Below, in pieces: positions 39,050 through 59,870 of a stretch of DNA of 64,000 nt. The stretch is from Bacillota bacterium (lineage in GTDB: Bacteria; Bacillota; Clostridia; Lachnospirales; Anaerotignaceae): contig JAETUG010000005.1 of NCBI GenBank assembly GCA_021768705.1, positions 37,226 to 101,225 of the forward strand. Direction: 5' to 3'. The notes below the pieces were generated by a model, which was given only the letters and a program-made list of their open reading frames with translations, did not search any database and had not been told where the DNA came from. How positions within the stretch are numbered: position 1 is the stretch's first letter; every line of letters begins with the position of its first letter. The translations under genes and the position numbers were made by a program.

Positions 39050-39405
39050 TGGAGATGAGGGGAATTGAACCCCTGTCCGAAAACCCATCCATAAGAACTT
39101 CTCCCATCACAGTCAGTCTTTTTTCATTCCCTCGTTACAACGCCGAATGACAGGCTTTGTCCCTCAGTAGCTTCATGAATCTTTTCCTGCCGCAAAGCTT
39201 AGGCAGAAAAGTGCCTCGCAAAGTCGATGCCGGATCCTCTGGCAGCGAGAAACCAGAGACCGACAGGCGCCGTTAATTAGGCAGCCAGTGCAAAATTATT
39301 TTTGTCGTTTCTTTTTTAAAAAGGTTCCAGCTTGATGACGCGGTTCACTGGTCCGCGGATGGCTATTCCTACTTTCAAGACTCCCGTCGAAACCATTGCA
39401 TCCCC
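39050..39405 (-). ncRNA. ssrA: tmRNA
   Basis: Minus strand 5' GGGGATGCAATGGTTTCGACGGGAGTC; 3' GGTTCAATTCCCCTCATCTCCA (T-arm/acceptor); internal tag ORF ...GAC AAA AAT AAT TTT GCA CTG GCT GCC TAA (..DKNNFALAA). CCA does not appear to be encoded. Confidence 0.95.
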
Positions 39406-46164: not shown

Positions 46165-46734
46165 TCATTCTTTTATCTGGTAAAGGGTCAAATCCTCAAA
46201 GGGGATTTGTCCATAGCTCCACCCCAGTTCCTTCATCTTTCCGTGGGTCATCCAGCCTACTTTTCCATGGGTATTCGTATTCAAATCTACTTTCAGGGTC
46301 AAATTTGCCGGAATGATCTTCCGCAGATGCTTCTGCAAAAAATCCCTTTTCTCCTTTATGCTCAGCTCCAACACCAGATGCAGGAAATACTTTTCTCTCT
46401 CCAGTGTCGCTTTATAGTTTTCTTCCCCACAACAGCCGTCCAGCCAATCCAGCAGATGAAACCAGGTATAAGGGCTTCGGCTGTTCCAACGATACAGGAT
46501 CTCTTTTCGCAGCTCCTCCGTTTCCAGCACCTCTGCCCCCAGAAAGCCCATCATCTTCGCCAACCGCAGCAGCCCGCTTCTCTCCGCCGTCAAGATCCAT
46601 TGGTTGTTCACCACTCTATCGCGTGCTGTCGCTTCTTCCTCCAAAATTTGCCCTTCAATCTCCGCCAACTTCTGAAATTCCTGCAATTCTCTCACTGTGC
46701 TGGGCAAATACTCGCTGTATCTGTTTTCCCTCAT
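46165..46734 (-). CDS. Phage tail/baseplate protein, DUF2313 (XkdU/YmfQ-like)
   Basis: MRENRYSEYLPSTVRELQEFQKLAEIEGQILEEE...; follows a baseplate J gene. Confidence 0.75.
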   Translation of the reverse strand: MRENRYSEYLPSTVRELQEFQKLAEIEGQILEEEATARDRVVNNQWILTAERSGLLRLAKMMGFLGAEVLETEELRKEILYRWNSRSPYTWFHLLDWLDGCCGEENYKATLEREKYFLHLVLELSIKEKRDFLQKHLRKIIPANLTLKVDLNTNTHGKVGWMTHGKMKELGWSYGQIPFEDLTLYQIKE

Positions 46735-47804
46735 GCTGTCACCCCGATCTCTCCCAAAACAGGGATTTCATCCGTCCCCAGCATCGTATTCCCACCGTTG
46801 CCGTTGACCATACAATCGGAAATATCCACCACGCCATCTGCCTCCAAGGCTCTGGCTTCCAGATAGCTGATGCGCACCGTCAGGTATTCGCTCTCTGCCC
46901 AGCTTTTCCGCAGTTCTTCAAAATACGCCTCAAATCTGCTTTGGATATCCGCCAGCACCGTTTCCTGCACCGCTCCTTCCGCCAAAGAAATGCCCATGGT
47001 AATGCTGCAGGTCACCTCCTTGACTCCTTCCACCGTCACCTGGTGTCCAATCGGTGCGATCCCATATCCATCGCCCCTGCTTTCCGGGTCGATCTCCTTC
47101 TGCAGTTCTGCCAGCTCCGTTCCCGTAGGGGATCGCCAGCCTTGGTCGATGATGACCAGCTTGACTGTGCCACCGCCGTCCCAAGCGGGATATACCTTTA
47201 CCCCGCCCACATTCTGCAACGCAGTGACCTTTCTCTGATAATCGGCAATATTTCCGCCAAAAGCATCTGCGTCAAAGCTGGCAAAATAACGTTTTCGAAA
47301 TTCTGTGTCCCCTTCTTCGTCCTCGCCATCTGTCCGTAGCTCCTCCAACATGGCAACCGCCAGTCCATCCATGTTTTCCAAGGGCAGCAGATTTCCTAAG
47401 TAATCATTCCCACAGGCACCTGCTGTTTCGCATTCCAGCACATATCGCCCGTCCGCTTCTCTGGAAAGTACCACATAATAGTATTCCTCCAAAAAGAATT
47501 TCGTGCCCACTTCCATGGGGTATTCCTCGTCATCTTCATTCAGAAAACGCCCGTAAAATGTGGCCTTTACCGCAGGCTTTCTGCGAATGCCCCGTTCAGC
47601 CGCCCGTCTGGTCAGGTCGTCCCCCGTGGCCGTATCCGCAAAAGTTCTGTCCTCCAACAGGTCCAGATCAGCGTAAAAGGTGGCTGTTTCCGCCGCATTG
47701 GGTGCCAGGGCATCAAAAATCAGGCTGCCCTGTCGCTTGTCCCTTTTGTCATCGATCTGATCCAGCTTCTGTTCCATCAATTCCTCATAGCTTTTCACCA
47801 TCAA
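46731..47804 (-). CDS. Baseplate J/gp47 family protein (XkdT-like)
   Basis: SYEELMEQKLDQIDDKRDKRQGSLIFDALAPNAAETATFYADLDLLEDRTFADTATGDDLTRRAAERGI. Confidence 0.92.
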   Translation of the reverse strand: MMVKSYEELMEQKLDQIDDKRDKRQGSLIFDALAPNAAETATFYADLDLLEDRTFADTATGDDLTRRAAERGIRRKPAVKATFYGRFLNEDDEEYPMEVGTKFFLEEYYYVVLSREADGRYVLECETAGACGNDYLGNLLPLENMDGLAVAMLEELRTDGEDEEGDTEFRKRYFASFDADAFGGNIADYQRKVTALQNVGGVKVYPAWDGGGTVKLVIIDQGWRSPTGTELAELQKEIDPESRGDGYGIAPIGHQVTVEGVKEVTCSITMGISLAEGAVQETVLADIQSRFEAYFEELRKSWAESEYLTVRISYLEARALEADGVVDISDCMVNGNGGNTMLGTDEIPVLGEIGVTA

Positions 47805-48205
47805 ATATCCACCGTCCTTTCCGCCGTGATCTCACCAAAGATAGTATGCACCAGAAATCCCGCCGTCACGCTCCCCTTTTCCTGCTGAAAAGAAAAATCC
47901 GTCACCGCCGTCACTCGGTCATCCCCCAGCAATGCATCCTCGATCCGCTTTTTCAGTTCGGGGATCACATAAGTCACATTCTTCCCATACAATTCTTCCA
48001 GTTCAATCCCATAATTCCAATCATAAATGGCATATCTGTATCGTTCCGTCTGCAAAATTTTATGAATTGCCTGTTTCATGGCTTCCAGCTCATCTACTGT
48101 CCCCCGCACCTCTGCCTGTTCCTCGTTGATCTTCCAAGTCAGGCTGGGAATGATTTTTTTCTCGATGCTTGCCATGTTCAGTTCCACTTCCTGTGTCGGT
48201 GTCAT
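47801..48205 (-). CDS. DUF2634 phage baseplate-wedge-like protein (XkdS-like)
   Basis: PSLTWKINEEQAEVRGTVDELEAMKQAIHKILQTERYRYAIYDWNYGIELEELYG. Confidence 0.85.
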   Translation of the reverse strand: MTPTQEVELNMASIEKKIIPSLTWKINEEQAEVRGTVDELEAMKQAIHKILQTERYRYAIYDWNYGIELEELYGKNVTYVIPELKKRIEDALLGDDRVTAVTDFSFQQEKGSVTAGFLVHTIFGEITAERTVDI

Positions 48206-48206
48206 C

Positions 48207-48536
48207 CTATCCCTCCTTTCTTACTCTGCCCAGCACCAAATATTGCTGTCCGCCGGCTGCCCGCAGCAATGCCACAGCTTCGCCGGTCTTTAGTTTTCTG
48301 TCCCGTATCATCCGATAATAAAACCACCTGTCTCCTTCCGTATCTGTCCATGTGCGGATACGTCCGGTTTCTTCCCATTCCAGCACCGCTTCTGTCAGCA
48401 CCAGAAATGGCTCTGTCAGTTCCAGCCCCTCTTCCAGCCGGATGCAGAGAGGCTCTGCCGCCGTCACCGTCCCAATGCAGAAATCCGCACCCGTTTCCGC
48501 CGCATCCAATGCCAGCTGTTTGATGATCTCAAGCAT
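48207..48536 (-). CDS. DUF2577 phage protein (XkdR-like)
   Basis: Position in operon; IGTVTAAEPLCIRLEEGLELTEPFLVLTEAV and KLKTGEAVALLRAAGGQQYLVLGRV. Confidence 0.8.
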   Translation of the reverse strand: MLEIIKQLALDAAETGADFCIGTVTAAEPLCIRLEEGLELTEPFLVLTEAVLEWEETGRIRTWTDTEGDRWFYYRMIRDRKLKTGEAVALLRAAGGQQYLVLGRVRKEG

Positions 48537-48548
48537 TTTGCTCCCTCC

Positions 48549-49232
48549 TTATCCTCTCAGACGCCTACCGCAGCTTTCCCGCTCTTCCCAAAGCTTTTTC
48601 GTCATCTGCTGCATCAGCTTTTCTATGTCAAATGGCATCTCCGTCTGGGGCTCTTCTCTTTTTGCTGTTTCCGTTTTCGGCATTTCCTGTGCGGCTTCTG
48701 CTACAGGTGTTTCCTCCTGTTGCATTTTTTCCGTCACAGGCACGATACTTCGTCTCTTTTGTTCCATTTCCGGCTTCTCCCAAAGGAAAGCCTGCCCCAT
48801 TTTGCTTTCCTCCGCTTCTTCCTGTCTTTCTTCCCGAAAAACCGCCGCCATAAAAAGATGGGAAACGTTCCGTTTCTCCGTCCCTTCTATCTCTTCTGTT
48901 CCTTCTATTGCTCCTGTTCCTTCTCCTTCTTCCCCGGCCTCCAAAGTTTCTTTCTGTTTCTTCTCCGCTTCCGCAAAAAAGAGCTTCTTCTCCTGTTTCA
49001 AAAAGCCGCCTTCCGCTTTCTTTTCTCCCAAAGCAGTCTCTGCTTTTTCTTCCCAGAAGGTCTTTTTCTTCTCTTCTTGCTTCAAAGAAACAGCATTACC
49101 CATCTCAGCAAAAGGATCTTCCAAGCTCTTCGCACCATTCCAAAACCCAATGCCCTTCGTCTCGCCTGTCCCGATCTTCTCCTTCCAAAAATCCAACAGC
49201 CGCCCGAACAGCCCTTTCCTTTCCTTCTCCAT
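48549..49232 (-). CDS. Glu/Lys-rich phage-cluster protein of unknown function in the tape-measure slot
   Basis: ORF with ATG at 49232 after GAGGTGAGAAGG; MEKERKGLFGRLLDFWKEKIGTGETKG..., C-terminal FDIEKLMQQMTKKLWEERESCGRRLRG; no recognised domain. Confidence 0.7.
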   Translation of the reverse strand: MEKERKGLFGRLLDFWKEKIGTGETKGIGFWNGAKSLEDPFAEMGNAVSLKQEEKKKTFWEEKAETALGEKKAEGGFLKQEKKLFFAEAEKKQKETLEAGEEGEGTGAIEGTEEIEGTEKRNVSHLFMAAVFREERQEEAEESKMGQAFLWEKPEMEQKRRSIVPVTEKMQQEETPVAEAAQEMPKTETAKREEPQTEMPFDIEKLMQQMTKKLWEERESCGRRLRG

Positions 49233-49247
49233 TCCCCTTCTCACCTC

Positions 49248-49771
49248 TTATCCTCTGGCTTTCTCCGCAGCTTCGATCTCAAGCTCTATGACAGCACAGC
49301 AAAACATCCGCTCCGGTGTGGTCATTTCCACCCATTCTCTGGGGCGTATCCCGTATTTCCGGAGGGCATAGCAGGCATAATCTGCCTCGTCCACGCCCTC
49401 CTCGATCAGTTTTTTGCCTGTGCCTTCCAAGCCTTTCTCCGCTGCTGAAAGCCGTTGATGTCCTTCACCGCTTCCAAAAGCCGCATATACTCTCCGGGGT
49501 AAAGCATCTCCTTCAATGCCTTTTCTCCGCTGTCCACCCCATAGCTTTCCCAAAGTGCCTTGTCCTGCAGATCAGGCTTCACCACAGAAAGCAGGCACAA
49601 TGCCGCCCATTTGTCCTTTTTGCCTTCCGCTGCCCTGCGGTATTCCTCCTCGCTGACCGCTCTGATCTCCCAAAGTGCCTCTGCGCCGTCCTCTGCAAAG
49701 CAGGGCGAAACACTTACCCTCCTGTTCTCCGGAAATCCATTGTTCTCCTTCAAAAAGTTTTTCAAGTCCAT
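49248..49771 (-). CDS. Predicted -1 frameshift product of tail assembly chaperone (gpGT-like, about 174 aa)
   Basis: Zero frame 49771..49409, then slip at A AAA AAC (49415-49409) into LIEEGVDEADYACYALRKYGIRPREWVEMTTPERMFCCAVIELEIEAAEKARG, stop at 49248. Confidence 0.75.
49361..49415 (-). promoter_or_regulatory. Programmed -1 frameshift element
   Basis: A AAA AAC (49415-49409), 7-nt spacer TGATCGA, stem GGAGGGC/GCCCTCC (49401-49395 / 49367-49361) enclosing AGGCA/TGCCT. Confidence 0.8.
49406..49771 (-). CDS. Tail assembly chaperone, zero-frame product (XkdN/gpG-like)
   Basis: MDLKNFLKENNGFPENRRVSVSPCFAEDGAEALWEIRAVSEEEYRRAAEG...; resembles 51399..51761. Confidence 0.8.
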   Translation of the reverse strand: MDLKNFLKENNGFPENRRVSVSPCFAEDGAEALWEIRAVSEEEYRRAAEGKKDKWAALCLLSVVKPDLQDKALWESYGVDSGEKALKEMLYPGEYMRLLEAVKDINGFQQRRKAWKAQAKN

Positions 49772-49773
49772 CC

Positions 49774-50751
49774 TTATCCCTCCTCAATGCGGATATCCAA
49801 CTGCATCCGATGCTCTCCGTCGGCAAAAAAATGGCAGCAGCTTTCGATCAAGGCTCTTCCCTTCAGGCTGATCTCCGCTAATCCCGGAATTTCCAGCCAA
49901 ATGCTGTTTCCGGCGTAAAGCATCATATCCCCATTGATGTTCTCAATCGTCAGCTTTTTTACCACTCTGCATTTTTCCTGCAAAATACTTTCCGCCAGTT
50001 CCTTCAGCTGCACGCTGTTCATGGTGTAAGGCACCCGCTTGTAATACTGCAGCCTGCCCCATTTTTCCACCTTGTCCGTCTGTTCCACTTCCCATGCCTT
50101 CCGTTCCGTTTCCTTCCGTCCCGCATGATAAAGCCGCACTGCATTATAGGTATCCTGACTGATATCCGTCTTGTATGTATACTCGCTGATGCCACCGTCG
50201 CATTTCAGCACCGCTTCCGCTACCATTTCCTTTCTCTCCTTCACCGTCAACCAACCAGCCTTATCGAACAGAAAATATTCCTTTCCTGTGGCCTGCCCAC
50301 AGATCTCCAAGGCGGAAAGGATAATATCCATCAGCGTTTCCCCTTCTTCGATCCTCTGGGGAATCTTCCACCCACTGTCGGATATTTCTCCCACCTGCAA
50401 GCCATAGTCTGCGGCAATGGTCTGAATGATCTCCTTTGCTCCTTTGTTTAGGAAAACATAAGTGGCCTTGTTTCTTGCCAGATAAAACATCTGATCATAG
50501 GCCGTCACGCTGATGATCTGTTCGCTGGTTCTCTCCTTTGTCATCACAAAGCCGCTAAACCGCAAAATGGTATCTACATAAAGGGAAACCTTGTCCCCTT
50601 CCACGAAATTCACAATGCCATCTCTGACCACCTGAAATTTCAGCCTTCCGGCCTTTCCCATAACACTGGCGTACCATTCCACGCCCCCCTCTAAAATCGG
50701 TGTGGCATCATAAAGACTGCTGCCATGCTGTAATAAAAGCTTTATCGTCAT
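49774..50751 (-). CDS. Phage tail hub/baseplate protein (XkdQ/YqbQ-like)
   Basis: MTIKLLLQHGSSLYDATPILEGGVEWYASVMGKAGRLKFQVVRDGIVNFVEGDKVSLYVD; downstream of the LysM gene. Confidence 0.88.
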   Translation of the reverse strand: MTIKLLLQHGSSLYDATPILEGGVEWYASVMGKAGRLKFQVVRDGIVNFVEGDKVSLYVDTILRFSGFVMTKERTSEQIISVTAYDQMFYLARNKATYVFLNKGAKEIIQTIAADYGLQVGEISDSGWKIPQRIEEGETLMDIILSALEICGQATGKEYFLFDKAGWLTVKERKEMVAEAVLKCDGGISEYTYKTDISQDTYNAVRLYHAGRKETERKAWEVEQTDKVEKWGRLQYYKRVPYTMNSVQLKELAESILQEKCRVVKKLTIENINGDMMLYAGNSIWLEIPGLAEISLKGRALIESCCHFFADGEHRMQLDIRIEEG

Positions 50752-50769
50752 CCCCGTCTCCCCTTTCTC

Positions 50770-51417
50770 TTACAGCTTCAAAACCTGCCCGGGATAAATC
50801 CTGTTCGGATCGGCAATGCCGTTCTTCTGGGCAATCTCCCTGTATCTTGCCCCATTGCCCAGCTGCTTTTTCGCAATATTCCAAAGGCAGTCCCCCTTCT
50901 GTACCGTATAGGTTGCGGCAGGCTGCTTTGTCTGCCTCTCCTGCCCCTGCTCCACCATGGTATTGCCTTTGATACTGTAACGGATGCTTTTCGCCGCTTT
51001 CCATTCCTTCCAGTGCACCTCCACCCAGAAGTCCCCCTGTTCGCCGCCTTTCTCCGTCACCGTGTAATCCTCCAACAGCACTTCCATGTTCCCGCAAAAA
51101 AGCTGTGTCCCGTCTGCCAGCTTTCGGAATAAAATCAGCTGTACGGGCTTTGCCGCCGCCTTGTATTCCTTGAAAGAATTCAGAAAATATTCCGGCTCAT
51201 GGAACCCATCCTCCGTCTGCACAAAGCTATACTTTCTCCCTGGCAGCAGTGCCGTGAATCGGATCTCCTGCAGCCCAGGCTTTTTCGCCAGATTCATCTC
51301 CCCGAAGTTCAGGATATATGCCGTCTTGTTTCGGTTTCCTGTCTTTGTCTCCATCTCGGCAGGTGTCACAGGCAGTAAAATCTGTTTCCCATCCTGCTTC
51401 AAATACAGTCGATACAT
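50770..51417 (-). CDS. LysM-domain tail protein (XkdP-like)
   Basis: [42 protein letters not shown]-terminal [46 protein letters not shown]. Confidence 0.92.
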
Positions 51418-51761
51418 CCGCTGTCACCTCCGTTGATCTCCTCCACAGCCCTGCGCAGTCGGTCATACTCTCCCGCCAGCAGCAGTCTTGCCAGCAGTCC
51501 TTCCGCCCCGACCACGCCATAGCTGTTTTGCAGTGCCGCATCCTTCAGGTCTGGAAAGACCACACTCTCCGCCAGCACCGCCCCTTCATATCTCTTTTCA
51601 TCCTCGCCGCATCTTTTCCAGATGTCCTCGTTCTCTCTCTGGCTCATGGGGCGGATGCGCCAAAGCATCTGCCCCCCGTCTGCGGCCAGTCTTTCTGTCA
51701 GAAGGACTTCTCTTTCGCCCCTGTCCTTCCGATTTTTTTTGTAAAAACATTCCTGTCCCAA
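51399..51761 (-). CDS. Phage tail assembly chaperone (XkdN-like), first copy
   Basis: Follows the tail tube; [64 protein letters not shown] start after GGAGGGG. Confidence 0.8.
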
Positions 51762-51841
51762 AATAACCCCTCCCTTTTTTGAAGCGATTCAGAGCCTATC
51801 TCGAAAATATGATGTATTTTTTCGATGTCGGCTCTGATCTT

Positions 51842-52297
51842 TTACAGTGCGTTAAAGCTGTCCAGCAGTTCCACGCCGCCAAAGGTAAATTTCATTTCCT
51901 CATCCATAGCCGCTTCGTCCACATCCAGCTTGCCGATCAGCATTTCTTCAATGTTCACATCCTTCAGAAGCACCGTCTGTCTGCCTGCTTCCCCCGTAGG
52001 GTCTTCGTTGGTCAGCATCAGTTCAAAGTAGGTGTCCACGCCATTTTTCATGTAGTCCACCATCACCTTTCGGAAGAGACTGCTCACATAATACACCGTC
52101 ATGGTGCCGGTGCCTTCCCAGCCGCCGCTTTTCTGCTGTTTTGCTGTCAGCCCCAGAATGGGGATCGTAGTTCTGGTTTTCTTCACCTTTGCCTTGACGT
52201 TTTTCACCTGCATCAGTTCGTGTCTTTTCCCGTCAATGATGGCAAAGCAGGTGCCTAAAGCACCATTGACGGTGTCTTTTGCTCTCAAATAACCCAT
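51842..52297 (-). CDS. Phage tail tube protein (XkdM, DUF2001)
   Basis: MGYLRAKDTVNGALGTCFAIIDGKRHELMQVKNVKAKVKKTRTTIPILG; GTMTVYYVSSLFRKVMVDYMKNG. Confidence 0.93.
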   Translation of the reverse strand: MGYLRAKDTVNGALGTCFAIIDGKRHELMQVKNVKAKVKKTRTTIPILGLTAKQQKSGGWEGTGTMTVYYVSSLFRKVMVDYMKNGVDTYFELMLTNEDPTGEAGRQTVLLKDVNIEEMLIGKLDVDEAAMDEEMKFTFGGVELLDSFNAL

Positions 52298-52311
52298 CTA
52301 TCGCACCTCCT

Positions 52312-53604
52312 TTACGCAACTTCCACTTTCATATACAGCTTTTCCATGGCGTCCACAGGCTGCACGTTTTCATAAACCACCACATCCTGTTTTTCCACGC
52401 CTTTTTCCACAGTGATATCCTCCGCTGTGAAATTTTCAATGGCCTCAATTTTCATCAGCTGCTCATGGTACGCCAAAATTTCTGCTTTCAGCAGGTTTCT
52501 GCCGTTAGCATTGTTGCTCTGTTTCCCCAGATAATATTTGCTGAAGATATTCGCCACATCATTGGCGATACTGTCCAGCACCCTTACCACTCTATTGCCG
52601 GAAAAATCGCTGTTTTTCGCCGTTTCAAAGGAAGTAAAGCTATTGATATCCCGCAGCACCCGCAGCTTGCCGTCCTCTTCATAGAACAGGAACTGCCCTG
52701 CCTGAATCCCCTTGATGTATTCGCTCTTTTTCATCTTTCCATTGACTTCATATTCCCCATCGTAGACCATATTCGTCAAGCTTTCGTTCACTTCCGCCCC
52801 GGCTGTGGCACCGGCTGCCCAGTATACCAGCTCACTGGCTGTCCCTACGGAAATCACGCCTTCGTGGTCTGCTTCGGGGTAATCATGGAGAACTGTCACA
52901 AATTTTACGCCTTCTTCCTCTCTCATCCGCTTTGTGAAGTTCACAAACAGCTTCTTTGTTGTCTCGTTGCTGCCGTTGTAAGCCAGCACATTGAAATCCT
53001 CCGCTTCTGCCGCTGCCAGAAAATCCGTATATGCGCTGCCTGCTGCCTCCTCAGTGGTGCCGCCTGTCAGGTATAATCCTGCTACCGCTGTCAATACGCC
53101 TGTACCTTTAAAGGTAACATACATATTTTCCTCCAGTTCTTCGATGTTGGCTACTGTCTGGCTGTCCACCATCTCTGTCCCCAGATATGTCTCCACATCG
53201 TAATAACCTTCCTCGTCTACGTTTTCTACAATGGCAATGCAGATATCGTTGCCTCTCTCGCCGCTGTATTTTGCTGTCACCGTCAGGTTTTCTTCTGTTG
53301 CGGTCGCCTTTTTCCCGCCATTCAGCCGATACAAATGTACCTTCTTTGCGTGCAGGAAAAGCTCTCGCATATCCTTCATCTTGTCATCCAGATAATCATA
53401 GCCAAACAGGGCTCTGCTGTCTGTCCGGAAGTCTGCCGCTTCCACTGTCAGCATTCCTTCTTTGCCCCAGTCCATTTCCATACCCACACAAACCATGCCT
53501 CTTTCTCCCAAGCTGCCCATGGCTCTGGGTCTGGAAACAAAATTGATGTATGCCCCGGGCAATACCTTATTCTGCACTAAAAAAGTGCCGCCGCCTAATG
53601 CCAT
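52312..53604 (-). CDS. Phage tail sheath protein (XkdK-like)
   Basis: MALGGGTFLVQNKVLPGAYINFVSRPRAMGSLGERGMVCVGMEMDWG; KFVTVLHDYPEADHEGVISVG. Confidence 0.95.
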   Translation of the reverse strand: MALGGGTFLVQNKVLPGAYINFVSRPRAMGSLGERGMVCVGMEMDWGKEGMLTVEAADFRTDSRALFGYDYLDDKMKDMRELFLHAKKVHLYRLNGGKKATATEENLTVTAKYSGERGNDICIAIVENVDEEGYYDVETYLGTEMVDSQTVANIEELEENMYVTFKGTGVLTAVAGLYLTGGTTEEAAGSAYTDFLAAAEAEDFNVLAYNGSNETTKKLFVNFTKRMREEEGVKFVTVLHDYPEADHEGVISVGTASELVYWAAGATAGAEVNESLTNMVYDGEYEVNGKMKKSEYIKGIQAGQFLFYEEDGKLRVLRDINSFTSFETAKNSDFSGNRVVRVLDSIANDVANIFSKYYLGKQSNNANGRNLLKAEILAYHEQLMKIEAIENFTAEDITVEKGVEKQDVVVYENVQPVDAMEKLYMKVEVA

Positions 53605-53605
53605 A

Positions 53606-53770
53606 TCAATGCTCCTTTCTTTTTCCTGTCAAATATGCCTGTATTTCCTTTTCCGCTTCTTCCTTGGTGTATGCTCTGTCCTCCAGCACCGCTTTCACCA
53701 GATCAGCCCCATACCCAAAAGTCTTGCTCTTACTCAGCTGTTCCCTGCTGAATGTCGCCTTCTGTTTCAT
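53606..53770 (-). CDS. Small phage-cluster ORF (54 aa) just upstream of the sheath gene
   Basis: MKQKATFSREQLSKSKTFGYGADLVKAVLEDRAYTKEEAEKEIQAYLTGKRKEH, read on the minus strand; below the ORF-track cutoff; stop followed closely by the sheath ATG (TGATATG). Confidence 0.75.
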   Translation of the reverse strand: MKQKATFSREQLSKSKTFGYGADLVKAVLEDRAYTKEEAEKEIQAYLTGKRKEH

Positions 53771-54191
53771 AGCCCACTGCTCCCTTTCCGTTGTATTCCA
53801 GCCGTTCCATCAGGCCTGTTTCCTCCTCATCGAAAATGATGTGATATTCATATTCCGCCGTAAGCTTTATGCCGTCTGCCGTCTTTTCGTGCTTTATGCC
53901 GCTTGCCGCAAATTTTTCGTCTCTCCCGATGATGCACAGTGCTTCATATAGCCCCTCTGCCGCCGCCAGTCCTTCCGCCGCTGCTATTTTCTTCTCACCG
54001 CAAAAATACGCAATGCGAACCGTCACCCTTCTTGCCGCTCTCCTGCCCAGTAGCCGCTTCTGCTCCATCTCTTCGATTTCCACCGTAAAACAGGGACGTT
54101 TTCCTCCTTGGGGCACGCTCTGCCCGTAAACCGGCAGTCCAAATTTTTCAGAAATTGCCTGTATCACTGCTCTTCTGATTTCCTCTGTCAT
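53730..54191 (-). CDS. Phage tail completion/minor capsid-like protein
   Basis: MTEEIRRAVIQAISEKFGLPVYGQSVPQGGKRPCFTVEIEEMEQKRLLGRRAARRVTVRIAYF; position between connector and sheath. Confidence 0.75.
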   Translation of the reverse strand: MTEEIRRAVIQAISEKFGLPVYGQSVPQGGKRPCFTVEIEEMEQKRLLGRRAARRVTVRIAYFCGEKKIAAAEGLAAAEGLYEALCIIGRDEKFAASGIKHEKTADGIKLTAEYEYHIIFDEEETGLMERLEYNGKGAVGYETEGDIQQGTAE

Positions 54192-54550
54192 ACCCCATCT
54201 CTCCTTCTCAGTCCCACTGCCTTATGGGTCAAAAATACCTGACTGTCTCCCGCTGCAAAATACTGCCGTTCCTCGCCGTTTTCCTTCCGTACCCGCAGGG
54301 TGCTTCCCACAGGAATCTCCTTTCCGGCAGGGTAAAGCAGGATGACCGTCTTTTCCAGTTCCGCCAGCAGACCATTTTCTCCGCAAGGGGTGTTTTTTTC
54401 CGTCAGGCGGCAGGGGAAGCTGTCTGCCTCCCCCTTCTGGTGCATGGTCTCGCCCCAGTCCGCTGTCTCTTCCTGAAAAACTTCTACAAAGCAGGTGTCC
54501 CAGAACAGGCTTTCCACAGCTTTTTTCGCTTTCGCAAATTCCTTCTTCAT
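54188..54550 (-). CDS. Phage head closure/minor capsid-like protein
   Basis: MKKEFAKAKKAVESLFWDTCFVEVFQEETADWGETMHQKGEADSFPCRL; order in structural module. Confidence 0.65.
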   Translation of the reverse strand: MKKEFAKAKKAVESLFWDTCFVEVFQEETADWGETMHQKGEADSFPCRLTEKNTPCGENGLLAELEKTVILLYPAGKEIPVGSTLRVRKENGEERQYFAAGDSQVFLTHKAVGLRRRDGV

Positions 54551-54562
54551 GCCGCTTCCTCC

Positions 54563-54892
54563 TTACCAGTCCATCCGTCTCCAACGGTCAAGCTCCACCT
54601 TGAAGCATTCCAACAGCTTTCCCTGGTCTGCCCCATGTCCTTCCTCCTGAAAGGTGATGGAAACATCCCCTTCCTTGATGCTTTTTGCCTTCTGGGAGGG
54701 CGTCGCAGCTGCGCCGCTGTCCAGCAGCATCCCCGCCAGTGCCACACCTGTCCCCAGCAGTTCTTCGGGCAGCTCATCCATATTGCAGTAGGCTTTCATC
54801 ATCTCTTCGCTGCGTCCTGCCGCAAAGTCCATGGCGGCAAGGTCCTCTTCGGCTCTCAATTTCATGAGCTTCGCCAGAATTTTTTCCTGCAT
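54563..54892 (-). CDS. Phage head-tail connector-like protein (gp6-like)
   Basis: MQEKILAKLMKLRAEEDLAAMDFAAGRSEEMMKAYCNMDELPEELLGTGVALA; position after capsid. Confidence 0.7.
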   Translation of the reverse strand: MQEKILAKLMKLRAEEDLAAMDFAAGRSEEMMKAYCNMDELPEELLGTGVALAGMLLDSGAAATPSQKAKSIKEGDVSITFQEEGHGADQGKLLECFKVELDRWRRMDW

Positions 54893-54909
54893 CCTTCCGC
54901 CGCCTTTCC

Positions 54910-55830
54910 TTATGCTTTGCTGATGTTCACCAGAATACCGTCCATGCCGTTGTCTGTGATCCAGATATCATGGTATTTTCTGTAGTCGATTTTCCACGCA
55001 TTGGCGTTCTGGTTCGTCATAGGGTCAAAAATTCTGGTCACATCTGTTTTGGAAACAGCAACGGGCGCATTCTTCGCCATGATGATCCAGTTGATGTCTT
55101 TGGCATCCTCTGCCGCCGCAAAGCCGCCATCGGTTTCATTTTCTGTCACACCATCCATAAAGGTATATTTTGTCTGGAATCGTGCAGAAGGCACTCGGAT
55201 GATGGGGCAGCCATCAATTTCCTTTACCTTCAGTTCTGCGCTGCCCTGCTGGAATACACCGCTTTCCAGCACATTTGTACCGCCCTTTGCCAAGTCCAGC
55301 ATCCCTGCCACCTTTGCGCTCATGGCAATGACCAGTTCACAGCCGTCGCCCACGGTATCCCGAATTTCGGTCATATCGTTCATCAGGTTTGTGAAAATTG
55401 TATCCACCGCCGCAGTATATTCCTTTGTCTTTTTGGCTGTCTGCGCCAGCTCTGCGATCTTGCTGTAGCGATAAGCGTCAATTTCAGGGATCACCTTTGT
55501 ATTCTGGAATTCCCGCATCACTGCCCCTGCTGTAGCCGCAAAATTTGTTTCATCCACATCCATGGCGTCCAGCTGGAAGGTTCTGCCTCTGTCCTGGGTC
55601 AGCTTTCTTGTTTCATAAGTCACTGTTACTGCCCCCTTGGCAAAGCCGCCGTCTCTGTCATAGTCTCCCAGGCCGCTCATCTGCATTTTGGGAATTTTCA
55701 CTTCTGCGCCACCGTTATACTGCACCTGCCCTGCGTTTCCTTCCATCCAACCCGTTGTAGATTTTTCCACCAGCTGGCTGTCCAGTTCTTCCATAAAAAC
55801 AGTTGCATACTGAATACTGTTAAAACTCAT
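54910..55830 (-). CDS. Phage major capsid protein
   Basis: MSFNSIQYATVFMEELDSQLVEKSTTGWMEGNAGQVQYNGGAEVKIPKMQMSGLGDYDRDGGFAKG; C-terminal IIMAKNAPVAVSKTDVTRIFDP. Confidence 0.88.
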   Translation of the reverse strand: MSFNSIQYATVFMEELDSQLVEKSTTGWMEGNAGQVQYNGGAEVKIPKMQMSGLGDYDRDGGFAKGAVTVTYETRKLTQDRGRTFQLDAMDVDETNFAATAGAVMREFQNTKVIPEIDAYRYSKIAELAQTAKKTKEYTAAVDTIFTNLMNDMTEIRDTVGDGCELVIAMSAKVAGMLDLAKGGTNVLESGVFQQGSAELKVKEIDGCPIIRVPSARFQTKYTFMDGVTENETDGGFAAAEDAKDINWIIMAKNAPVAVSKTDVTRIFDPMTNQNANAWKIDYRKYHDIWITDNGMDGILVNISKA

Positions 55831-55842
55831 CTTTCATCCTCC

Positions 55843-56265
55843 TTATCTGCCCAGACCTCTTCTAAAAGCCTCTCTGATCTCATCCTCTTTCTTCTTCTGG
55901 CTGCTTTTTGCTGCGCCTGTGCCTTTTTTCTTTTCTGCCTTTTCATGGAACAGATAAGGCACTTCTGCCTTCACTTCCTCCATGTCCAGCCCTGTCAGGC
56001 CCTTTTTCTCGTCATAGGACACCTCGTCCATGTCGATCAGTGCCAGAATGGCCTTCACATTTTTGCCGCCGGCCTCCAGAATGGCTCTTTCCACCGCCGC
56101 AGTCTTTCTGTTTTCCGCCAGCTCACCGTCCTTTCCGTCCAGTGTCTCCTGCATTTCCTGCATCTGGCTCTCCATCTCTTCCGCCGCCTGCATCAGTTCC
56201 ACCTTTGCCGCAGGGTTCACCATGCCCTGCTTGGCAAATTTTTCTACCATCTGTGTCAGTTTCAT
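55843..56265 (-). CDS. Phage scaffold-like protein
   Basis: Coiled-coil EEMESQMQEMQETLDGKDGELAENRK; between portal and capsid. Confidence 0.6.
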   Translation of the reverse strand: MKLTQMVEKFAKQGMVNPAAKVELMQAAEEMESQMQEMQETLDGKDGELAENRKTAAVERAILEAGGKNVKAILALIDMDEVSYDEKKGLTGLDMEEVKAEVPYLFHEKAEKKKGTGAAKSSQKKKEDEIREAFRRGLGR

Positions 56266-57707
56266 TCTTCTTTCCCCCTTCTTTCTCTTTCCAGCTGTTC
56301 CATCTCGCTGTTCACATCCTCCACGAAAGGATGTTTCCCCAGCAGCGTCTTTTCGCTGACAATGCCCTTGCTTTCTGTAATGATCTGCATGGTTTCCAGA
56401 TCATCGGTAATGCCGTTGGTATTCAGCGTGATTTGAATTTTTCTCCAGTCCCAGTCCGTACCGTTTTCCCGGTTCCAGTCCTCCACCGCAAAGCAGAAAA
56501 ATTCCTTCACCGCCTTTTTGATTTCCGGCACAATGCCGTTGATCTTCAGGTAAAACATAGCATACTGAAATTTCAGTGCCACCCCGCTGGCGGCTTTGCC
56601 CCAGTCATCACTGTCGGTATCCACCCCCATACCAAAGTGGAAAATATCCTTCCGCAGCATCTGCATCCAGTCCAGTCTGCCTTCCACGGGCAGCTGTACC
56701 TGCTTCGCCTCCACACTGCCGCTGCTGTCGCTGATCTGCACTGCCTTGTTCACCTGCAGCTTTCGTGCCACGGCGCTGGCTGTCTCTCCGCCATAGCCTT
56801 GGATCACCCAATACAGGTCTACCAGATCCAACAAAGTATTGGTCCCTTCGCTGCTCACATAATCATACGCATCGATGAGTCCCTTCACCAGCTGCAGGTC
56901 GGTCATTTCCCTGTCATTGTTCCGCAGGGGAATAAAGGGCACTCTGCCCCAGCCGTGTTCTACCGTTTCCCTTTCCTCGCCGTCCAACAGCTCCGTTACC
57001 GTCCAATGACCGCATTTGTTCTCTTGCAAAAATTCCCCGTCACTGTTCTCCGTATAAAAGGTCACGTTCTCCGCAGTCCACCATTCCACACGCCGCTTGG
57101 TCTTTTCCCTGCCGCCGTCCAGTACCTTGATGTCATAATATCGAATCACTTCCCTGATATCCTGCTGATACACCTCATCGTAAACCACGATGATCTCCTC
57201 CGCAGGCACAATGCAGTATCGAAAGACCCCTTCTTCGTCATAATAAACATGCAGATATTCCACGCCTTTGTTTGCCGCCCCGATGATCCATTTCTGCAGT
57301 ATACTGTTGAATCCCTCGTCAGCAAAATCCGTCAGCATCGTCTCAAATTCCTTGCTTTTCTGCCCTCTTACGCTGAGGGTAGGCTCTCTCCCTACCAAAT
57401 AAGCGGTCTTTTGTGCCACCAACGCATGGTGGAATGGGTTCACACAATGGTGATTGCTTCGGTTGGGGTTAAAAAACATCTGCATGCTTTCCTCCCCGTC
57501 TCTCCCCGTTTCGGAAACAGGGCTTCTGCGAAAATCCTTCTGCAAAATATCATGCTTCCCCTGATAATATCGCTCGCCCTCTTCCATCCTCTTTTTCTTG
57601 TCACTGTTTTTGTCCTCCTGAATGATCTCCTTCAGGATATGGCTGTCGTTAAGGCTTTTCCCCGCCGCCAGCCTTGCTTTCAGCAGCTCCATTTCTGTGA
57701 TAAACAA
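56262..57707 (-). CDS. Phage portal protein (SPP1 type)
   Basis: KKRMEEGERYYQGKHDILQKDFRR; NHHCVNPFHHALVAQKTAYLVGREPTLSV; VPFIPLRNNDREMTDLQLVKGLIDAYDYVSS. Confidence 0.93.
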   Translation of the reverse strand: MFITEMELLKARLAAGKSLNDSHILKEIIQEDKNSDKKKRMEEGERYYQGKHDILQKDFRRSPVSETGRDGEESMQMFFNPNRSNHHCVNPFHHALVAQKTAYLVGREPTLSVRGQKSKEFETMLTDFADEGFNSILQKWIIGAANKGVEYLHVYYDEEGVFRYCIVPAEEIIVVYDEVYQQDIREVIRYYDIKVLDGGREKTKRRVEWWTAENVTFYTENSDGEFLQENKCGHWTVTELLDGEERETVEHGWGRVPFIPLRNNDREMTDLQLVKGLIDAYDYVSSEGTNTLLDLVDLYWVIQGYGGETASAVARKLQVNKAVQISDSSGSVEAKQVQLPVEGRLDWMQMLRKDIFHFGMGVDTDSDDWGKAASGVALKFQYAMFYLKINGIVPEIKKAVKEFFCFAVEDWNRENGTDWDWRKIQITLNTNGITDDLETMQIITESKGIVSEKTLLGKHPFVEDVNSEMEQLERERRGKEE

Positions 57708-57724
57708 TTCCCCTTCTCCTTTCT

Positions 57725-58963
57725 TTATCTGATCCGTACGTGTCTCATGTCATCCTCTCGGCTATACCGCACCGCATCGATCGCATGATTTTCTCTGTCC
57801 GGAAATGCAGCCTTCCAACCGCCCTTGCCGTCCCCTTCGTATGCATATCCGTAAAATTCCTTTGCCGTTTCCGGGCATCGTTTGGGGTCGATGATGATCT
57901 CCTCCAAGTCCTGCAGCCACTTGATGCCATAATACACGCTGTCAGGGCCCTTCTTCGCCCCCACAGCAGCCACACCATATTCCCGCATTTCCGCAATGGA
58001 TTTCGGCTCTGCGCTGTCACAAACGACTGCCCTGTGGTTCGGGTTCTCCTTCCTGATCTCCTCTGCCAGTCGTCGGTTGCTCATGCCCTGCGCCCGCAGT
58101 TCAAAGAAGATATACAGCAGCCTTCTGGTCTTGTCGTAGTGGTTCACCGTGTAATGCAGTGGGTCTACGGCATACCCCCAGTCCAGTCCACGGCTGATTC
58201 TGTCAAAAGCAGCAATTTCCTCGTCGGAAATTTCCCGTAACGTCAGATTGCGAAAAACTTCGCCGCCGCCCCCCGTCACTTCCCCTAAATATTCATGTCG
58301 GTAAGTCTCAGGGTGACGCTTCCGTATGTATTCCGCCTCTGCCAGAAATTGGCTCCCCAGCCATTCCTCCGGCATATCCAGATAAGTGCTGTGATGGACC
58401 AGCCTGTCTTCCCGTTCCTCTGCCATTTCCTGGTTCACCCAGTTTCTGGCATGCTTAGGCGGGTTAAAGCTGTAAAAGATACGAAATTCTTCGCCCCCTC
58501 GCATCAGGCTTTGGTTCAGGTTCCGTAATTCCTGCATCCCACCAAATTCGTCCACTTCTTCATACCAGATAAATTTGGCATAGCCCCGCTGAAATTTAAT
58601 GGATTTCAGTTTTCTCGGATCGTCGCATCCCCGAAACAAAACCTTTTGCCCTGTGCTTTTCCGTACCAGCTCCATGGGGCTCACCTTTCTCTCCCATTCA
58701 TCCTCCACACCCAAAGCATGAATGGCCCATGTCATCTGCTCAAACACACTGTCCCGCAGATTCGCCGCCACCTTTCGCAGCACCACCGCATTGGCATCCT
58801 CGTCCTCCACCAGCCCCAGTATGATTTCAATGGACAGAAACGAAGATTTTCCGCTGCCTCTCCCGCCTTTCAGCCAGTAGTGGGTATGTCCCCCTTCTCG
58901 GATATCTCTGTGCAGTCCGTAAAATCCCTTCCCGATGCACTGGCTCAGTCTCGTCATCTTCAT
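57725..58963 (-). CDS. Phage terminase large subunit (PBSX family)
   Basis: LKGGRGSGKSSFLSIEIILGLVED; FIWYEEVDEFGGMQELRNLNQSLMRGGEEFRIFYSFNPPKHARNWVN; LDWGYAVDP. Confidence 0.96.
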   Translation of the reverse strand: MKMTRLSQCIGKGFYGLHRDIREGGHTHYWLKGGRGSGKSSFLSIEIILGLVEDEDANAVVLRKVAANLRDSVFEQMTWAIHALGVEDEWERKVSPMELVRKSTGQKVLFRGCDDPRKLKSIKFQRGYAKFIWYEEVDEFGGMQELRNLNQSLMRGGEEFRIFYSFNPPKHARNWVNQEMAEEREDRLVHHSTYLDMPEEWLGSQFLAEAEYIRKRHPETYRHEYLGEVTGGGGEVFRNLTLREISDEEIAAFDRISRGLDWGYAVDPLHYTVNHYDKTRRLLYIFFELRAQGMSNRRLAEEIRKENPNHRAVVCDSAEPKSIAEMREYGVAAVGAKKGPDSVYYGIKWLQDLEEIIIDPKRCPETAKEFYGYAYEGDGKGGWKAAFPDRENHAIDAVRYSREDDMRHVRIR

Positions 58964-59382
58964 GGCAGATCATCCACGATGAAGATGGGACTTTTTTCTT
59001 CTGCTTTTTTCTCCTTTTCAAACAAGCTCTCTCGCTTGCCCAAAAGCTCCGCCGCTTTCATCCGCATTTTCGGGTCGGCATCCTCTCGCATCATTCCCGT
59101 CAAAAAACACAGGATCTCTTCCTTCTCCGCCACTGCTGTCTCTTCTTCCCCTTTCGGCATGATTTTTTCTTCCTGCACTGCTGTCTGCTCCTTCTGCCTT
59201 TGTATCTCCTCCTGGATTTTCTCCATCCGCAGCATGTCGCCCACGGTCCTGCTGATGTTTCGATACCCCAACAGCTTCGCCGCATCCAAAGGTTTCATCC
59301 CTGCAGCGCAGAGCCTGCAAAATTCCTTCTGCCGTTCCGTCAGTTTTCTCTCTGCCACATTTGCATCGCCTCCTTTCTCCAC
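58960..59382 (-). CDS. Phage terminase small subunit
   Basis: LTERQKEFCRLCAAGMKPLDAAKLLGYRNISRTVGDMLRMEKIQEEIQR; overlaps terL start. Confidence 0.88.
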   Translation of the reverse strand: MEKGGDANVAERKLTERQKEFCRLCAAGMKPLDAAKLLGYRNISRTVGDMLRMEKIQEEIQRQKEQTAVQEEKIMPKGEEETAVAEKEEILCFLTGMMREDADPKMRMKAAELLGKRESLFEKEKKAEEKSPIFIVDDLP

Positions 59383-59411
59383 TGCTCCCTCAATATATCC
59401 CCTTCCAACTC

Positions 59412-59870
59412 TTACATAGTCTCATCCTTCTCCATCTGCAGCAGCTTTTCCAATATTCTGTCCTGCATCCGAAACAACGTAGCTCGGCTCATGTGCAGCT
59501 TCATCCCAATAAAATCAAAGCCGCACCCTTTCTCGTATCGCATCTGGATGTATTCCTGTTCTTCCTCCGTCAACTCCTGCAGCAGCCCGTCCATCTGCTT
59601 TTTCTGCTCCATGATTTCCAAAATCTCTCCCTGCAGCTTCTCCATATCTCCTTCATACTGCCTGTCAATGTTCTCCATCATCTGAGCCACCGCCGCAGAA
59701 TCATTCTCCGCCATCAATTTCTTCTGCTCTTCCCGCAGCTTGATGATTCGTTTCATCTTCTCCTGTCTCCGTCCGCATTTCTCTGCTGCGCATCCCCAGT
59801 CCAGCAGCCGTATTTTCATCCGCCCCTTGTCGCTGTCCATTCTTCCTTTCACATATGCCTTCCATCCCAA
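59412..59870 (-). CDS. Sigma-70 region 4-like phage transcription regulator
   Basis: C-terminal LTEEEQEYIQMRYEKGCGFDFIGMKLHMSRATLFRMQDRILEKL; likely TTG start after AGGAGGGG. Confidence 0.75.
   Translation of the reverse strand: MGWKAYVKGRMDSDKGRMKIRLLDWGCAAEKCGRRQEKMKRIIKLREEQKKLMAENDSAAVAQMMENIDRQYEGDMEKLQGEILEIMEQKKQMDGLLQELTEEEQEYIQMRYEKGCGFDFIGMKLHMSRATLFRMQDRILEKLLQMEKDETM

Follow-up and report, generated by a model that had tools for sequence, protein, structure and literature searches.

A very probable -1 ribosomal frameshift in an XkdN-like tail-assembly chaperone gene of an apparently domesticated contractile-tail gene cluster

The locus described here raises the question of whether a short tail-assembly chaperone gene, designated TAC2, encodes one protein or two, the longer one being reached by a -1 programmed ribosomal frameshift, as an earlier note on this DNA had proposed. 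All coordinates given below count from the first letter of the window, i.e., the whole stretch of 64,000 nt that was analysed. TAC2 occupies positions 49406..49771 on the minus strand, and its zero-frame product of 121 aa is an XkdN-like protein that exceeded the PF08890 cut-off of 27 in profile searches (68.1 bits, E 9.6e-19) and matched phrog_389 in PHROGs (E 7.9e-27). Among solved structures the sole match was YqbN (3klu), a weak one (E 0.32), and no NCBIfam name was obtained for TAC2, its possible extension, the paralogous TAC1 or the neighbouring ORF231 (see below). Read on the minus strand, the 121 codons finish with GCA AAA AAC TGA, which places a slippery heptamer, A AAA AAC, at 49409..49415, in the X XXY YYZ phase of the zero frame and directly before the TGA at 49408-49406. 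Both the coordinates and the phase claimed in the earlier note were found on direct reading.

The AAAAAAC-stop ending of TAC2 is not due to chance. In a control covering the window and 18 related loci, 5 of the 263 stop-to-stop ORFs of 80 or more codons in the window ended in any XXXYYYZ-stop, TAC2 being the sole case with AAAAAAC, and the AAAAAAC-stop endings among the matches listed for the related loci (1372 ORFs) all belonged to XkdN-type chaperone genes. Among the window genes, AAA accounts for 41% of Lys codons, AAC for 57% of Asn codons and GCA for 37% of Ala codons. No Rfam motif was detected at the shift site. As a separate observation, loci L090 and L092 each carry, in the vicinity of the TerS and sigma-like genes, a minus-strand ORF that ends in AAAAAAT-stop and is followed by a -1 frame open for about 160 codons; these are possibly just overlapping genes.

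Chaperone relatives were gathered at the level of genus, family and phylum, as well as from viral contigs and isolated phages, mostly as draft or metagenome assemblies. They yielded 62 distinct sites ranging from genus to phylum, which do not represent 62 independent events since close relatives resemble each other. The heptamer was AAAAAAC in 58 of these sites, AAAAAAG in two, and AAAAAAA and AAAAAAT in one each, with the zero-frame stop directly past it in 56 of the 62; the preceding codon ended in A at every site. The variant heptamers occur at L012, L016, L022 and L027. Comparison of homologues, a check proposed beforehand, thus found the heptamer, its phase and the -1 frame to be kept in the XkdN members sampled.

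Past the heptamer, 53 codons of the -1 frame are open (49248..49409, minus strand), from CTG at 49409-49407 to TAA at 49250-49248, the same length as had been read in the earlier note. Searched by itself, this T-like domain matched phrog_33439 (PHROGs, E 2.6e-23), and its pN/pS was 0.085 in the -1 frame, as compared to 1.67 and 1.23 when these bases are read in the other frames. The extension evolves as a protein in the -1 frame only. A rival reading makes the extension a separate small protein, with its own -1 frame start or translated by ribosomes that re-initiate past the stop, and the heptamer incidental. In its favour, PHROGs holds the extension as a family of its own, phage records sometimes list part of it as a hypothetical gene (Jimmer1 gp22), and the GGAGG of the 5' arm of the stem-loop described below looks like a Shine-Dalgarno sequence. 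Yet no start codon is conserved in the -1 frame, with 37 of 79 scanned sites (a few of them spurious) lacking any in -1 codons 3-21, and on this absence an independent start was rejected. The GGAGG of the window, moreover, ends 2 nt before a GTG, and sites with a more distant stem partner have other arms, several of them without GGAGG. Because it also leaves the conservation of the heptamer unexplained, we regard a separate protein as scarcely tenable.

Downstream of the heptamer, after a 7-nt spacer, lies a predicted stimulatory stem-loop (49361..49401, minus strand), identified from folding, conservation and covariation. Its outer helix pairs GGAGGGC (49401-49395) with GCCCTCC (49367-49361) and its inner helix AGGCA (49387-49383) with TGCCT (49377-49373), which is the 7-bp stem and inner stem that the earlier note had described, at the spacing it gave. 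For the 53 nt past the heptamer, the folding energy is -29.6 kcal/mol (z -5.3), none of 200 dinucleotide shuffles being as good, and neither was any of 200 synonymous-codon shuffles for the first 60 nt (z -5.8). At the same spacing, a helix was predicted in 55 of the 62 distinct sites, compared to 16.4 expected from synonymous shuffles in which codons were weighted equally; the other 7 sites have no predicted helix at the position of the TAC2 stem. The 3' partner mostly lies either around +47 or between +67 and +73, so that lineages have swapped this partner and retained the spacing. Covariation was assessed in 35 sites chosen for the common compact stem form. There, 11 of 16 pairs showed changes on both sides, amounting to 31 cells as compared to 12.3 after shuffling, with none of 500 shuffles reaching 31, and sliding the partner lowered pairing from 85% to 41-52%. 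Since choosing compact-form sites favours pairing as such, it is the double changes that carry the information. Upstream of the heptamer, a dnaX-like Shine-Dalgarno stimulator was considered and dropped, with a mean z of 0.10 versus synonymous shuffles.

These features also bear on transcriptional slippage, in which the polymerase would add an A at the A6 run in part of the mRNAs and thereby give a similar fusion. The run itself is present in all 62 sites, as such slippage would call for, but six A residues are short for polymerase slippage, which would moreover require neither a compensated stem at a set distance from the run nor the strong preference for C right after it (58 of 62). Slippage of the polymerase is therefore considered highly improbable. 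Taken together, the heptamer and its phase, the covarying stem at fixed spacing, the selected -1 frame and the lack of a conserved start leave the -1 frameshift as the only explanation considered here that fits everything. As judged from the sequence, TAC2 is almost certainly a two-product gene expressed via -1 programmed ribosomal frameshifting, and the central proposal of the earlier note is supported by the conserved heptamer and phase, the covarying stem and purifying selection on the -1 frame.

According to the proposed mechanism, most ribosomes would terminate at the TGA past A AAA AAC and release the 121-aa chaperone, and the stem-loop located 7 nt downstream would hold up a fraction of them. 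In these ribosomes, both tRNAs, with Lys in the P site and Asn in the A site, would slip back by one base, and 53 more codons would be read. Tandem slippage would yield a fusion of 174 aa with the junction ...QAKN-LIEEGVDEADYACYALRKYG... (beginning ...QAKN-LIEEG...), the predicted junction being KN-LIEEG since Asn would occupy the A site before the slip. A spanning peptide beginning KKLIEEG, as expected in the earlier note, would instead be a minor form, arising only if slippage precedes Asn decoding. The predicted tryptic junction peptide is NLIEEGVDEADYACYALR with tandem slippage and LIEEGVDEADYACYALR with KK re-reading. By analogy with lambda gpG/gpGT, the 121-aa form may coat the tape measure and the rarer 174-aa form may recruit tail-tube subunits; with two forms having separate roles, the shift rate would set the ratio of the products. 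The occurrence of slippage, its rate, and the roles and binding of both products are points that we infer. A point against the proposal is that, in E. coli, A AAA AAC shifts weakly as compared to A AAA AAG (PMC5009743); the host here belongs to the Clostridia.

TAC2 is part of a cluster of head and contractile-tail genes recognised with Pfam and PHROGs, which spans 46165-59870 (14 kb) on the minus strand. Profile matches identified baseplate genes at 46165..48536 (Gp48-like, baseplate J, sheath initiator and DUF2577), a YqbQ/XkdQ-like baseplate hub at 49774..50751 (PF24032, E 1.3e-88), the tail tube at 51842-52297 and the tail sheath at 52312-53604. Within 53730..59870 are a tail terminator, a scaffold, an SPP1-like portal, TerL, TerS and a sigma-region-4-like regulator, together with an ORF of 306 aa in the major-capsid position and two small ORFs in head-tail positions, these three assigned by position alone with no Pfam match. 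At 50770..51417 is a LysM tail protein in an XkdP-like position (Pfam, PHROGs), which PHROGs labels as endolysin, whereas Pfam finds LysM alone. ORF231 (48549..49244, 231 aa) follows TAC2 in the usual tape-measure position and has no family match in Pfam, PHROGs or NCBIfam. It evolves fast (dN/dS 0.36), the ORF at that place ranges from 210 to 430 aa in relatives, and its position makes it a candidate short tape measure. If it has this role, a tail of about 35 nm would be predicted at 0.15 nm per residue. Several relatives share a C-terminal motif resembling D-V/I-D...M..MTKKLWE.R.

Calling TAC2 the second chaperone proved justified, as a paralogous XkdN-like gene, TAC1 (51399..51761, minus strand; PF08890, E 5.5e-22), is located after the tube gene and lacks the shift site. 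In a tree of 51 sequences, TAC1-type paralogues form one clade of 17 (support 99/97), 16 of which were scored as having no shift site. The remaining one (G031_6817) was flagged by a loose pattern, yet its sequence has no heptamer before the stop. Copies of this clade end around VEEIN, just short of the stretch where the other clade has its shift site. A single copy, of the shifting type, was found in genus g9.

The cluster adjoins the SecG-RNaseR genes or the LysM438-PLD genes, or stands between both, in genera g1, g7, g8, g17, g9 and g11, the flank that is visible depending on the extent of the contig available. A tmRNA gene lies close to RNaseR (39050-39405), a usual host neighbourhood. In the sisters G364, G033 and G027 (L114, L115 and L122), LysM438 and SecG are adjacent and the cluster is absent; with such empty sites, a loss or a site-specific gain of the cluster must have occurred, and its scattered absence may be compatible with either losses or repeated gain. 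The cluster diverges in step with the flanking RNaseR gene, the distances for cluster genes correlating with those for RNaseR at 0.64-0.94 (the pairs not being independent), and between the window and G003 the dS of most cluster genes is of the same order as that of RNaseR.

No integrase was found on the contig, no holin or amidase was recognised in the cluster with Pfam, and no convincing pair of flanking direct repeats could be proposed as att sites. The lack of these genes would suit the remains of a decaying prophage, to which the shift site would no longer matter. Against decay, the cluster genes of the window are open, most have a dN/dS of 0.04-0.22 versus G003, near the 0.045 of the flanking RNaseR, and the shift site is kept across genera, making a remnant improbable in the extreme. 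Two traits of gene transfer agents were observed instead: particle genes occur without an integrase at a locus common to related genomes, and they are inherited with the host under purifying selection, though with the scattered absence noted above. Judging from its genes, the cluster appears to be a gene-transfer-agent-like candidate that was kept and long inherited by these bacteria. Retention of the shift site within a cluster that follows the host genome also argues that the particle is still in use. More specifically, we tentatively propose that, in Anaerotignum and related genera, TAC2 serves a host-domesticated, vertically inherited, contractile-tailed, gene-transfer-agent-like particle whose tape measure is unusually short and whose chaperone is duplicated, one copy having lost its slippery-site end.

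The TAC2 frameshift is a further case of a known phage tail-gene device, conserved through the XkdN members sampled, and the apparently domesticated cluster is the less expected and more interesting finding. These data add evidence that the XkdN family, common in contractile phages of Gram-positives, is expressed via a conserved -1 frameshift, which is missing from the public annotations examined. No paper describing a frameshift in XkdN was found in the open-access literature, and an earlier description may exist.

A frameshift in tail genes was reportedly found to be conserved in dsDNA phages by Xu, Hendrix and Duda in 2004. This device, lambda G/GT included, has been reviewed (PMC5009743). 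The likeness to lambda gpG/gpGT suggested in the earlier note stands as a functional analogy, with a short chaperone and a predicted, rarer -1 extended form encoded by a single gene that immediately precedes the tape-measure position. It does not extend to the protein family, as TAC2 had no match to the gpG family in profile searches and belongs to XkdN/Phage_TAC_5 (PF08890); it also differs by its contractile tail, its A AAA AAC with an immediate stop and its covarying stem-loop. TAC2 shares its Pfam and PHROG family with XkdN/YqbN of PBSX and skin in B. subtilis and with proteins of phiC2, Jimmer1, KC5a and phiOH2, and in both Jimmer1 and KC5a, as in diverse genome members, AAAAAAC precedes the stop and a related -1 extension follows. 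The records of Jimmer1, phiC2, KC5a, MismyG and phiOH2 give the chaperone as a plain, unjoined gene, with the extension absent or partly under a separate hypothetical gene; for these five, conventional annotation misses the extension, as had been anticipated. In the records of phiC2, Jimmer1, KC5a and phiOH2, the chaperone comes after the tube region and before a normal tape measure, whereas the window has two paralogues, the shifting one after the hub. As a candidate, the cluster resembles gene transfer agents and the GTA-like PBSX in its intact head, terminase and tail genes, its fixed chromosomal place, purifying selection and the absence of an integrase. Gene-transfer-agent-like packaging was reported in 2026 for FpGTA of Faecalibacterium, whose cluster is probably podovirus-like (PMC12946183), in contrast to the contractile tail encoded by the cluster of the window.
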